Assembly (NCBI GenBank): GCA_030062745.1 | Contig: CP099847.1 | Coordinates: forward strand, 4,418,070-4,482,069 | DNA length: 64,000 nt | From: Capitulum mitella | Lineage: Eukaryota; Arthropoda; Thecostraca; Pollicipedomorpha; Pollicipedidae | Direction of reading: 5' to 3' | Shown here: piece after piece, positions 27,540 through 59,068 of the stretch | Numbering within the stretch: position 1 is the stretch's first letter | How the letters are laid out: each line of letters begins with the position of its first letter | The notes under the pieces: model-generated | Seen by the model: the letters and a program-made list of their open reading frames with translations, nothing else | Databases searched by the model: none | What the model was told of the DNA's origin: nothing | Made by a program: the position numbers and the translations under genes

Positions 27540-28045
27540 CTAACCCACTCAACCATTCCTTCTCTCCCTGTCACTCCTCTTTCCCCTCTTTCTCTCCCGC
27601 TTTGCAACTCTTTGCTCCTCTCACGTCTTTCCCTTCCGCTTCTCTCTCCCTCGCTCCCTCTCTTCCTCCCTCCCTCTCTCCCGGCAGTCCGCCCGCTCTC
27701 CGGCGCAGCCGGCCGGCGCCCGGCTGCCCTGAATACACAAGGAGCCCTGTTAATGACATTAGCGACGGGCGGCGCAACGCCGGCGTCGGGCGCGCGACTT
27801 CTCTCCAACCCGCACCGCCGCTCCGGCGGCTATTGATCGACTTTGCACCCGAGAAGCCGGCCAACGCGGGTCCGGTTGCGGCGACGGGAAGGCAGGTCGC
27901 GGCCGGTCGCCGGGTCCTCCCGGGCCGGGCGGAGCGGGCCGAGCCGGGGACACCGGTCTTGCGTCGCACGGTCGGCGGCCGCCGCGACCAGCCGGTCCGC
28001 CGCCCGGCCGCGCCGGCCGCCGTTGTCGCTGTAACGGGCCGTTGA
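27540..28045. other. Pyrimidine tract followed by GC-rich island
   Basis: CT-rich simple sequence at about 27540-27680 passes straight into a CpG/GGCCGG island with CGGCGGCTATTGATCGAC near 27822. Overlapping 110-177-codon frames are low-complexity and have no family resemblance. Confidence 0.4.
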
Positions 28046-28049
28046 GATC

Positions 28050-29862
28050 AGACCTCTGTGACCCTGGTCGGCCCTGGTCGGACCTTAACGGGAGCCGGCT
28101 CCTTGGGCTACTGGGTCACCCAGCTAACAGGGAATAAGGATGTTCATTCGCATTTTCTTCTGAATGGGAACTTTTCGTAAAAGAATATCTGTGGTACCGT
28201 TTGGTACGTTTTGCCCAGGAACGTGATTTTATCACTTTCACGAACGATTTGAAGGAGAAGGACGTGGTATTTCATAGCATGCCAAATACCGTCGCCATGC
28301 CATGGCGTTCATTTTCGTCACGGGCCGTAACAGCAGTACTAAATCTGAGCAGTCTACTGTCCATTTCGAAATTCCGACCAAAATTCTGCGATTGAAATAG
28401 TCTATACAAACGCTTTACAGAATCGTTATGTGCTGGAAACTGTTGAATGCCGTTAGGATGAATGGCATCGGGCGGCTGACTTGGACCGGTAGAGAGGACA
28501 ATGACGCCGGCCCTTCGCAGTCAACAGTTTAGACGTTTCGACGCTCCGATGCTCTTGGAAAGCTTTGCCATTACAAAGACACGTAAATAAAACACTACAT
28601 ACTGCGTAGAACGCTGGATGAATGGCGCGCTTAAGACAGTGAAAGCGTTGTCGAAGGAAAACCAGGCGACACATTCACCGGTTATATTTGCATCGACGAC
28701 TAGAATCGGCCGCTTCACGGGCAGACGAACCGAGACGCAGACACTCGGGTGCTCGTGCGTGACTAGTTGTACACCGAAAGACAGCGTGAGACAAAACCGC
28801 CGCAAATCCTCGCATCGCCCACGCCCTCACATTCGGAGCCGCAGAAACCGAAAGGGAATGTTCCTACCATCCAACGGAAATGTCGCGACACGACACCGGA
28901 TGGCGGCGGTTTCTGCGTCCGAATCACACAATATCACAGAAATGTCGGGAGCTTATCATAAAATATGTTATGAAGTGATACCATTGTTATTGGCTTGGAT
29001 CACAGCATAACTATGATATAACGCTACGCATTATTTTGATGTTGTACGTCTGCTTACACATTTTTACTTTAATTTTGTTTATTTGAAAGACATCACGATG
29101 TGCCATAAAGCTGCACTTAAAAAACTATTGCTTATGAGAGAATGCAAGAAAAGGAGCGCTAAGCTATTATTCTCTTACGTCCAAAACAGAAGGTTAAACG
29201 TGATCTCATGGGATGAAAGCCGCCCCGCAGCCACCGCGTCTCATACCACAAAATGTCTCACAATTTCACCTGACAGACAGCACATCTAGCTCCCTATTGA
29301 CTACTCGTACGGGAGGTGACTAGTTCATGGTTCCATTCACATCATGTGGCAACTTATTTACAAAAATAGGCGACCGAAGGTCTTCAGCGAGTCTTGTTGA
29401 CAAAGTCCCGCAAACGATACCATATGAAACAGCGGACTAAAACTGCCGCTCATTTTGATATCATTAACTTCGGCATTCCATGAAAATGCTCACTTAGTCA
29501 CCCCTAGCACTACCTTGAAGTACGAGCGATACACGGCCAACACTTAAAACATCTATCGTCACTATCTCTCGGTACTCTGTCATCTCGCGCAGAAAAAACG
29601 AATGCGATGCATTTTTCATGGAGTCCGCTGATCATAAAGATGTCTGCATGAGGTAATGACAGCGGTGCATCTCAGGTCGCTCGTTACCAGTTCATGCCAC
29701 TTGAGGCTCCACCAGAGCCATCCCCAAAAATATGGACCTCCGGCTCCACCAAGATTCGATCCTCCGAGTCCACGGCTCGCTCGAAGCTAGTTCCACTCCC
29801 CCTCAGGGAGCGGTCGGTTCTGCGCCGCTCTGAAAGACTGGAGCTGCGGCAGCGCCGGCAGC
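28050..29862. other. Downstream flank of the BH3-type gene; no separate gene seen
   Basis: Only short frames. On the minus strand an AATAAA (29083-29078) lies about 780 bp past the stop codon at 29863 and could serve as the polyadenylation signal. Nothing else supports a transcript end. Confidence 0.35.
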
Positions 29863-30006
29863 TCACGGCAGCTTCCGGGCCAGCGTGACGCAGACGTGCA
29901 GCGCGATGCCGGCCCAGAGGCAGCTCTCGGCGCTGGGCCGGCCGCCGAGCCGAGCCAGAGCCGCGGCCAGCGGCGCCGCTAGCCCGTCCTCGGCCGCCTT
30001 CCGCTC
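29863..30006 (-). CDS. BH3-type gene, last coding exon (hydrophobic tail)
   Basis: 48 codons including TGA, starting directly after TTTCAG. ERKAAEDGLA begins the exon; CLWAGIALHVCVTLARKLP ends the protein. A short hydrophobic stretch near the very C terminus followed by basic residues resembles tail anchors of Bcl-2-type proteins. The frame is open for a further 189 codons upstream of the acceptor, which I attribute to GC-rich composition. Confidence 0.62.
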   Translation of the reverse strand, partial: ERKAAEDGLAAPLAAALARLGGRPSAESCLWAGIALHVCVTLARKLP

Positions 30007-32404
30007 CTGAAACAGCGCGGACAGCCGGTCAGTTCTCCGCGCACGGCGGGGAACCCCCTCGGCACCCCTGAGACGCCCGCCCGCAGGGGAACCCCCAATT
30101 TGTGCGGCCGGCGGTCGGCTGCCGTCGCGCGGAGCGAGAACCGCCACGGATCGACAGACGGCTGTCGGTCCACGCCGGCCGCCGTCCGTCTTCGGCGGCG
30201 GATTTGCGGCGCTGATTGACTGGTCGGCGATGACCGGCGGCCGGCCGGCGCAGGCCCGGGGCCCCCACCATCGATTTTCCCTCTGCCAGCCGTAATCAGC
30301 GCGCCGCGACAAAAAGTGTCGCGCCAACAGCGGCGCGGCTAATGGGCCGTGCGGACCCGCGCCGTCCGTCAGGTGAGCGCCATAAATGTCTCCCGCCGGC
30401 GGCGCGCCGCGGCGCCAGACCATCGCGGGCCGGCGCCGGCCTTCAAACGGACACACAATTCGTGTCTCATTTGGTGTGGACTGATGTTCCACGTTCAAAA
30501 GACATCTGTCAGCTATATGTTTCTTAATGCTAATTCTCGTGCTCATGTCTCTATCGTTGGTGATTTTTTTCATTTAGTAGAGATTCATTTAGAGAGTAAT
30601 TTATGCCCTCCAGCCCGTGGAGGCCAGCATCGTCTTGTTCCGGCGGTGATATTCAGCCAATAAACTCTCCGGAAGCGGGCCGCTCGAGTATCACTCGCGA
30701 GGAGGAAAGTTTCTTTATCGTGTTTTACGGCTCAGAAGTTCTCTTATAAAACAGATGATGAAGATTAACTAGACGCACTGGCACCAATTCCGCACTTGGA
30801 GGTTAGTTGTCCCTTTCCCTAAACTTCTGAGACCATAGTCGTGATTACAGCAACTATTATTTGATGTAACAAGAACGCTGCGCTCTGCGAGGCGCAGCCG
30901 ATATCAAGGCTCCCTTCAGCTAATTACTCGCTTGAGCTCCCCGGGATTTTCGCATAACTCCACAAATTTCATCATCATAGTCCAGATAATACGGCTAAGA
31001 CTTTCTAAATTAGGCAATGTTGGAGAGGCTCGGGTTTCTGAACGTGATACGAGGTGGCGGAACTCCCCGTCATTGATTTCCGACGCAAGATTTTCCGCTC
31101 TTTTTCGTCGCATCTCGCTAACGAGACGTCCCCCCCTAAAAAACGGTCACACATTCATGGGGTCTCGGTAACAGAGTGCTCAACGACAAAAAGGTTCCTC
31201 AAAGCCAACCCCGCGAAAGAAAGAAACCGGGCTCACCTTGCCGAGTCGTTCCTGCAGGTCGTCCGCGATCTGGCGGAGCAGCGCGCCCGTCTGCCGGAGC
31301 ACGTCCTCCTCGCGCACGTCGCCGCGCGCCCTGCCAAGCTCGCTGAGTCGCTGCAGCAGCAGCTGCTCGAACTCGGCCGAGACCTGGTGCACCTTGTGGT
31401 GCAGGCAGTGGCAGACGCTGCGCGCCGCCGCGCTGTCCGTGTAGGCCCGCGGCCGGCTGCCGCGCCGCTGCGGGCCGCCGTCGCCGGGGCCGGCACTGGC
31501 GCCGGCCGGACCGCGGTGGCTGGGGCTGGAGGCGCCGGAGCTGGAGCCGGAGCTGGAGCCCGAGCTGGTGCTGGAGGAGTCGGAGCTGGCGCTGGAGGAG
31601 CCGGAGCTGGGGTCGAAGCTGTGGCCTGAGGAGCTGGAGCCGTGGTCGGTGGGGCCGGCCAGTCGGCAGTGGCAGCGGCTGTCGTGGCCGGTCGGCGGCG
31701 TCTCCGCCTGCCGCGCTCCGGACTCGCTGGCCAGGCTGCTGCGGACCAGGTCCGGCAGGGGTCGGCCCGAGCCGGGCGCCGAGTCCACCTGCACGGAGGC
31801 ATCTGAAACAGGCGCACGCGTCGTTACCGACTGCACCGGACACGGGAGCACGACACACTGCACACCGCTGTCAGACCTGCCGGCCGATCAGCTTCTCAAG
31901 GCCCGTCATGTTGAAGTGCTCCTAATCCATTTTGATCCACGTCAGTTATTATTTCGATTTCTAACACAAAGCAATTAACAATGTGTCGGAAGAATATTGG
32001 CAAAGAACTGTAGGCTGCATAGGAAAAATGTACAAGCGAAAAATTGTAAGGTTGTTCGTCCTTGTATGTCAACAGGTCAACAAATAGTATGTCAACATAT
32101 CTACACAACAGGTCTATGATTCCTAAATTTTGTAGACCATGTATTGACCTGTTGCATGCCTATGCCCGTTGTAGTAGGCCGTTTGAGAGCAGCAGCTGCT
32201 CCGTAGGACGTCTGAGTGGCACTGACCTGTGGACGACCGCCTGCTGCCGGCGGGCGAACAGCCGCCGGAGACCATCCTGAAGGCGGCGGCGATCTCCTGG
32301 CCGAGCTGGCTGATGAGCTGCTGCCGCACCCAGGGCGCTTCGGCCGGTCGGGGCGCGGCCGCGAACGGCACGGCGCCGGTCACCAGCAGGGCGGGCAGAG
32401 ACAT
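29863..32404 (-). CDS. Predicted BH3-only apoptosis regulator, Bim/Bmf-like, three coding exons
   Basis: Join of 32404-32227, 31802-31237 and 30006-29863 gives 888 nt, 295 residues plus TGA. Both introns are GT-AG (donors GTCAGT and GTGAGC, acceptors TGTTTCAG) and phases match. Visible parts: DYNLL-type motif DASVQVD at residues 60-66; Ser/Gly-rich linker 114-155; C-H-C motifs at 103-105 and 190-192; a helical stretch about 195-216; BH3 core LRQIADDL at 235-242 with the invariant Asp at 240; hydrophobic tail LWAGIALHVCVTLA at 278-291 followed by Arg-Lys. Known for Bim and Bmf: they dock on dynein light chains, and the BH3 helix binds pro-survival Bcl-2 proteins at mitochondria. Order and spacing fit that family; overall sequence is otherwise novel. 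The start is the first ATG of exon 1; an upstream coding exon cannot be excluded. Function is inference from short motifs. Confidence 0.68.
30007..31236 (-). other. Intron 2 of the BH3-type gene (1230 bp)
   Basis: Begins GTGAGCCCGG and ends GCTGTTTCAG, phase 0. The 3' half (30010-30460) is a GC-rich island with ATTGATTGAC/TAATCAGCG-type words and a 7 bp stem hairpin CGCGACA-AAAAG-TGTCGCG at 30305-30323, so an intronic regulatory element is possible. Confidence 0.55.
31237..31802 (-). CDS. BH3-type gene, coding exon 2 (linker and BH3)
   Basis: 566 nt encoding residues 61-248. It carries the rest of the dynein-light-chain motif, the Ser/Gly linker encoded by a GAGCTGGAGCCG-type 12 bp repeat (plus-strand view, about 31525-31640), a Cys/His cluster CHCLHHKVH, and the BH3 motif just before the donor AAG|GTGAGC at 31237/31236. 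Very high G/C at third positions. Overlapping open frames on both strands (194, 219 and 191 codons) are shadows caused by that composition. Confidence 0.7.
31803..32226 (-). other. Intron 1 of the BH3-type gene (424 bp)
   Basis: Begins GTCAGTGCC and ends GCGCCTGTTTCAG on the minus strand. Phase 1. Confidence 0.6.
32227..32404 (-). CDS. BH3-type gene, coding exon 1
   Basis: ATG at 32404-32402, 59 codons plus one base, ending ...AGCACAG before donor GTCAGT at 32226. The leftover G joins AT from exon 2 to make GAT (Asp60). Sequence includes APWVRQQLISQLGQEIAAAF, a probable amphipathic helix. The frame stays open past the donor for about 35 more codons, so splicing rather than a stop ends the exon. 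Confidence 0.65.
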
Positions 32405-54898: not shown

Positions 54899-54959
<61 letters not shown>

Positions 54960-54960
54960 G
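54560..54960. other. GC-rich block followed by (GA)n
   Basis: A moderately CpG-rich segment with GGCGGCATTAAACGCTG near 54761 is followed by a GA dinucleotide array at 54903-54960. Confidence 0.5.
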
Positions 54961-55479
54961 GAGAGAAGAGACAATGACGATGACGACAACGACGACAAGA
55001 CGCATTGTTCTAAAATCCATTTTTTTAAACGACCAGTCTGAATCCAAAGTGATCTAAATATAGTTAGATTGAGGTCTAAGACAAACTCTTGTTTTGAAAT
55101 GGCGAAAGTGGAAGGAAATGTAACCTATCAAGGATGTCTTTACATAACGCAACAGACATCATATAATCGCGTTTCTACAACATTGGGCAAATATTTAAGT
55201 TTAACGAACATTTACTTTCGGATTGGTGCAGCGGCTAGCCGGATTTTTTTGCGCAAAGAACTTTAATGACATGGCTTCAGAATTTCAAGAAGACTGGCAC
55301 AATTATGGAACCAGGAAAAGAATAACCCGACCCACCTATTCGCACCCGCTAACATTCAAACTTTCGGACCATCACTTTTTTTAGGTTTCGATTATGGCGT
55401 GCCTGCATTGTTCGGTAGGTTTCCGACAGTCGATTCTGAACGGTAAGCCAAATGAGTTCCAGATGTTCTGGCCGACCGC

Positions 55480-59013: not shown

Positions 59014-59068
<55 letters not shown>
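59014..59068. repeat. (GA)n microsatellite
   Basis: About 55 bp of uninterrupted GA dinucleotides, directly before a GC-rich block (59069-59360). Confidence 0.95.

Follow-up and report, generated by a model that had tools for sequence, protein, structure and literature searches.

A metazoan survey describes BH3-only proteins (BH3, Bcl-2 homology 3) in Caenorhabditis elegans and not in other nematode branches or in insects (PMC8998228). Sayonara (CG14044) of Drosophila, reported later, is an exception; its BH3 is inferred in Muscomorpha alone, and the case looks recent and convergent (PMC10107002). Much of the Bcl-2 network is believed to have been lost from arthropods, and among the open-licence BH3-only papers listed on invertebrates, arthropods, crustaceans, barnacles and shrimp (for shrimp, 15 of 35), no title or abstract beginning reports a crustacean BH3-only gene. 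Here we describe a candidate BH3-only gene of the crustacean Capitulum mitella, located on the minus strand of a 64,000-nucleotide stretch of contig CP099847.1 (assembly GCA_030062745.1, positions 4,418,070 to 4,482,069), which was analysed as a whole and is hereafter called the window. The genome bears arthropod marks: it has at least 150 matches to cuticle proteins (Chitin_bind_4), and the PDB entries closest to one of its GAPDH frames are 4gpd, 1gpd, 1crw and 1ihx, enzymes from lobster and spiny lobster.

The gene model, obtained by computation, consists of three exons of 178, 566 and 144 nucleotides that join in frame into 295 residues and a stop codon, with intron phases of 1 and 0 (Table 1). 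Both introns start with GT and end with AG, and the outer ends given by a sequence-only reading that had proposed this frame proved exact. Third-position G+C is listed for each exon in Table 1; at the second codon position it is 0.625-0.644, and the two introns have a G+C content of 47% and 56%. Because exon 2 is GC-rich, several of its frames are open, and an open frame is by itself little proof; the candidate reading frame is favoured by the codon-position pattern together with the splice sites and the start and stop codons. When all minus-strand GT sites from 32420 to 29780 were scored, the exon 2 donor (AAG/GTGAGC, at 31236) was the sole site above the donor-score cut-off of 6.

Towards its end, exon 2 fits the BH3 pattern (hydrophobic-small-x-x-Leu-x-x-hydrophobic-small-Asp-acidic-hydrophobic) at residues 231-242 in all but the first position, with LRQIADDL at residues 235-242 and, as the sequence-only reading had noticed, a glycine (Gly232) at the upstream small position. 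The first position is Thr231, as in the HRK peptide. That reading had exon 2 ending with LRQIADDL itself, and here it needs correction, the exon running on for six further residues (QERLGK). On a 16-position matrix built from twelve known BH3 sequences, EGL-1 among them, the motif scored 17.43 bits, to be compared with leave-one-out scores of the known BH3s that run from a lowest value of 5.05 for BOK through NOXA (13.3), BAX (14.6), BAD (14.7), HRK (16.4), BID (16.9), BMF (18.4), BIK (20.4), EGL-1 (21.0), BAK (25.4) and BIM (28.2) to a highest of 30.5 for PUMA. The runner-up in the window (open frames of at least 30 residues, 81,956 residues) scored 11.9. A score of 17.43 was reached by none of 5 million random positions, by one of 3,000 shuffles of the candidate protein and by nothing in another 20 genome pieces of 10 kb each (263,088 residues). 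The top score in those pieces, 15.72, came from the BH3-like stretch of a Bcl-2-family gene on C2 (see below), whose piece had been included on purpose, and the remaining 19 pieces gave at most 14.75. The candidate BH3 is also amphipathic as a helix, with a hydrophobic moment attained by 3.6% of shuffles.

A HMMER profile built on ten known BH3s gave 9.8 bits for the best stretch (P about 3e-5) and 9.1 bits for the whole protein (P about 5e-5), both for one protein; this outcome convinces for a single gene in a single window and not across a whole proteome. Applied to the Bcl-2-family frames of the same genome, the profile gave 9.6 bits for the C2 gene, and it is a poor detector of arthropod BH3s, since the Bcl-xL-like and Bok frames scored 0.2 and -0.2.

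By sequence, the nearest BH3 is that of PUMA (BBC3) (PUMA EEQWAREIGAQLRRMADDLNAQY, candidate EEDVLRQTGALLRQIADDLQERL). An unguided search of 177,635 distinct PDB sequences placed PUMA BH3 peptides at ranks 2 and 3 (E 0.55 and 0.58), and the PUMA C-terminus aligned with the candidate at a score of 56, equalled by 0 and 1 of 1,000 shuffles. Pairwise scores were 36 for BID, 34 for BAK and 33 for HRK, with 1 to 15 of 1,000 shuffles as good (more than 98.5% of shuffles beaten). The candidate and PUMA both have a hydrophobic part after the BH3, while PUMA is not known to have an LC8 motif to set beside the relaxed one of the candidate. With Bim (BCL2L11) and Bmf the candidate shares the order of an LC8-type motif, a BH3 and a hydrophobic tail. 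EGL-1 of C. elegans, compared by description, is likewise an ecdysozoan BH3-only protein, but a short one that is not known to have an LC8 motif. Sayonara, an arthropod BH3-only protein like the candidate, is set apart from it by its description as a member of the coiled-coil family PTHR21974 (PMC10107002).

As in the Bim, Bmf and PUMA genes, the hydrophobic C-terminal tail lies in the exon after the BH3 exon; in Bim, the exon that carries the tail is presumably E5. The dynein motif of Bim is described in E2C and its BH3 in E4, with E5 following as the last coding exon (PMC4695108). The candidate also follows, on its predicted exons, the exon rule for the BH3 (PMC7022251), a rule that is typical rather than strict because the BH3 of Noxa is described otherwise, being placed in its last exon (PMC8875537). 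With a value of 1.97, residues 277-291 are more hydrophobic than any other 15-mer in the sequence, and an equally hydrophobic 15-mer within the last 24 residues occurred in 0.18% of shuffles; a hydrophobic C-terminus followed by Arg-Lys resembles the ends of tail-anchored mitochondrial proteins. The relaxed LC8-binding motif near the N-terminus fits [TVI]Q[TVI][DE], present in 0.86% of shuffles, and reads ASVQVD where Bim has DKSTQT (PMC4695108). AlphaFold2, run on exon 2 alone as a single sequence (mean predicted local distance difference test, pLDDT, of 57.9), left residues 61-182 without structure and predicted helices at residues 183-217 and 224-247, the second containing the BH3. With 92 of its 188 residues at pLDDT below 50, exon 2 is predicted to be largely disordered outside the BH3.

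Potential partners are encoded in the same genome, where a search for the Bcl-2 family found three places, on C3, C6 and C2. The closest PDB relative of the C3 gene is Bcl-xL (E 3.3e-20) and that of the C6 gene is Bok (E 1.4e-21). The C2 frame matched Pfam Bcl-2 at E 3.2e-6 and 28.0 bits, under the curated cut-off of 31.4, and an adjoining frame holds the BH3-like stretch QTGTELRALADAF, with neither a Pfam match nor a convincing PDB relative; against the candidate QTGALLRQIADDL this stretch aligned at a score of 34, with 26 and 19 of 1,000 shuffles as good. We read C2 as a third Bcl-2-family gene of at least two frames (L005:658-1053 and 1198-1698), possibly Bax/Bak-like. All three genes have an arginine within the region read as BH1. 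An LC8-type dynein light chain is also present, to which C6 gives two exon matches and C3 a single match.

As a separate observation, the Bcl-xL-like frame (L003:1084-1824; C3:22952461-22953201) contains a pair of LC8 motifs of the TQT type, DSDTQTE and TDKATQT, of which the latter matches the strict form [KR]-x-TQT (0.42% of shuffles); at least two TQT occurred in 0.08% of shuffles. No LC8 site is known to us in any pro-survival Bcl-2 protein, though no literature search was aimed at this point.

Several findings weigh against a working BH3-only protein. From the profile P, about one such BH3 match is expected by chance in a 20,000-protein proteome, and therefore the motif alone is no proof. 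Six of the ten known BH3 regions compared (BIM, BMF, BAD, BIK, NOXA and BAX) scored 19-25 and were not distinguished from shuffles, none exceeding 88% of shuffles on both controls; for BIM, 145 and 178 of 1,000 shuffles aligned as well, and for BMF, 365 and 284. Outside the BH3 there is no similarity to Bim, Bmf or PUMA above shuffles, and in particular the tail, which starts 37 residues past the BH3 Asp, aligns with the C-terminal tails of all three no better than shuffles do. The 64-residue PUMA C-terminus, searched against the genome with two candidates scored, did not return the gene. The strict LC8 motif, in its TQT form ([KR]-x-TQT), is absent from the protein, where only the relaxed ASVQVD is found. 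The exon 1 donor (CAG/GTCAGT) is weak, falling below the cut-off with a rare C at +3. Finally, the hydrophobic N-terminus MSLPALLVTGAVPFAAA could act as a signal peptide and would then place the protein outside the cytosol.

In a rival explanation, the gene encodes a largely disordered protein specific to its lineage, with amphipathic helices, a BH3 pattern that is a chance match and a job unrelated to apoptosis. This explanation, the less probable one but a serious contender, draws on the expected chance match per proteome, on the failed PUMA query and on the six undistinguished BH3 regions. In addition, more than 10,000 human peptides are reported to fit the minimal pattern L-x-x-x-[GAS]-D (PMC4072508), and convergence or chance is held to give rise to BH3 motifs (PMC10107002). 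What speaks against chance is the rank of the motif, whose matrix score is the highest among all the genome sequence scored (the window and the 20 pieces).

The sequence-only reading had seen no other Bcl-2 homology domain, and we came to the same result in the protein and nearby by Pfam, tblastn and a BH2-pattern scan. The protein has no Pfam Bcl-2 match and shows no BH1, BH2 or Bcl-2 fold. The best 25 tblastn matches of the Bcl-2-family frames of this genome in the window look low-complexity and lie outside the Bcl-2 domain, and a loose BH2 (GGW-like) pattern has just two minus-strand occurrences between 14000 and 33000, at 27837 and 19533, of which neither convinces. No convincing further exons with BH1 or BH2 were found near the gene. 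These negatives make it improbable that we are dealing with a degenerate or partly modelled Bcl-2-fold protein, with residues 183-217 as helix 1, the BH3 as helix 2 and downstream exons missed, although its two consecutive helices are arranged as where a Bcl-2 fold begins and a possible donor at 29866, weak and below the score cut-off, overlaps the stop codon. Least probable, and only barely credible, is a secreted or membrane protein whose BH3-like helix never meets Bcl-2 proteins: residues 3-17 are the second most hydrophobic 15-mer after the C-terminal tail (1.82) and an Ala-rich stretch follows, but the hydrophobic stretch has an internal proline and no preceding basic residue, and long Ser-rich disorder is predicted.

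Taking the motif, exon layout, predicted disorder, tail and partner genes together, we lean modestly towards a gene that encodes a working BH3-only, pro-apoptotic protein of a crustacean. The proposed Bim/Bmf type survives as a description of layout and no further, given that the closest BH3 is that of PUMA, the Bim and Bmf C-termini align at shuffle level, the LC8 motif is missing in its strict form, and Pfam listed no family of Bim, Bmf or PUMA (E limit 10, with filters that remove the majority of matches above about 0.1). A shared ancestry with Bim, Bmf or PUMA is doubtful, clearly less likely than a BH3-only function, because convergence is held to produce BH3 motifs (PMC10107002).

If expressed, such a BH3-only protein would be largely unfolded, and its weak N-terminal LC8 site may dock it on a dynein or myosin V light chain, keeping it quiet. 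Upon a stress signal, helix 224-247 would insert in the groove of the cell's own Bcl-xL-like protein, placing Leu235, Ile238 and Leu242 in groove pockets and Asp240 on the groove arginine. Binding in this way would free or activate Bok or the third, possibly Bax/Bak-like, protein and so might kill the cell, while the last-exon hydrophobic tail would hold the protein at the mitochondrial outer membrane. A broader proposal, which we consider unlikely, is that all three parts of the death switch (BH3-only, Bcl-xL-like and Bok/Bax-like) were retained in crustaceans, with LC8 as a common anchor; the relaxed LC8-type site of the BH3-only protein and the two TQT sites of the Bcl-xL-like protein could then hold both on a motor-linked hub until stress. 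Should binding and killing be shown, the candidate would be one of very few arthropod BH3-only cell-death triggers known, and a crustacean gene of vertebrate-type layout would, if true, mean that this line either retained or rebuilt the trigger tier. The candidate supplies a definite gene, peptide and partner set for testing mitochondrial apoptosis in arthropods.

Table 1. Features of the candidate BH3-only gene, in positions of the window (GC3, G+C at codon position 3)
Feature	Position	Strand	Remarks
Exon 1	32227..32404	-	Residues 1-59 and base 1 of codon 60; ATG start; GC3 0.915
Intron 1	31803..32226	-	424 nt, phase 1
Exon 2	31237..31802	-	Remainder of codon 60 to residue 248; disordered part, first helix and BH3 (predicted disorder and helix); GC3 0.947
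Intron 2	30007..31236	-	1230 nt, phase 0; separates BH3 exon from tail exon
Exon 3	29863..30006	-	Residues 249-295 and TGA stop; GC3 0.917
Relaxed LC8-binding motif TDASVQVDS (residues 59-67)	31780..32230	-	Split by intron 1 (32230-32227 and 31802-31780)
Ser-rich stretch of exon 2	31519..31640	-	On decayed 33-bp (or 21-bp) tandem repeat
BH3 motif TGALLRQIADDLQERL (residues 231-246)	31243..31290	-	Within predicted helix 224-247
Hydrophobic C-terminal tail CLWAGIALHVCVTLA (residues 277-291)	29878..29922	-	Followed by Arg-Lys
AATAAA, possible poly-A signal	29078..29083	-	About 780 nt 3' of stop

No relative of the candidate was found in the viral or prokaryote contigs searched, and the genome itself held no convincing second copy, paralogue or spliced retrocopy, four of the nine weak places having been read. 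Two of these (L008 and L010) have the look of repeat or low-complexity matches, a third (L013) is the antisense strand of GAPDH, and the fourth (L009) matches weakly and lacks the BH3 part. Weak Pfam matches of the protein to SOG2, DUF4404 and CHAD fell below the cut-off and were taken as chance. Of the 132 open frames in the window, ten others had no Pfam match save one to LtrA (E 0.043, below the cut-off), and the window contains no Rfam match at gathering score and no tRNA detected by ARAGORN. With a decayed tandem repeat underlying it, the Ser-rich stretch of exon 2 may vary in length between individuals. Exon 2 also encodes two Cys-His-Cys clusters, VCHCLHHKVH and RCHCRL (window 31387-31416 and 31660-31677), which are possibly metal-binding. 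Elsewhere in the window, long AG/GA dinucleotide runs occupy 54903-54971 and 59014-59068.
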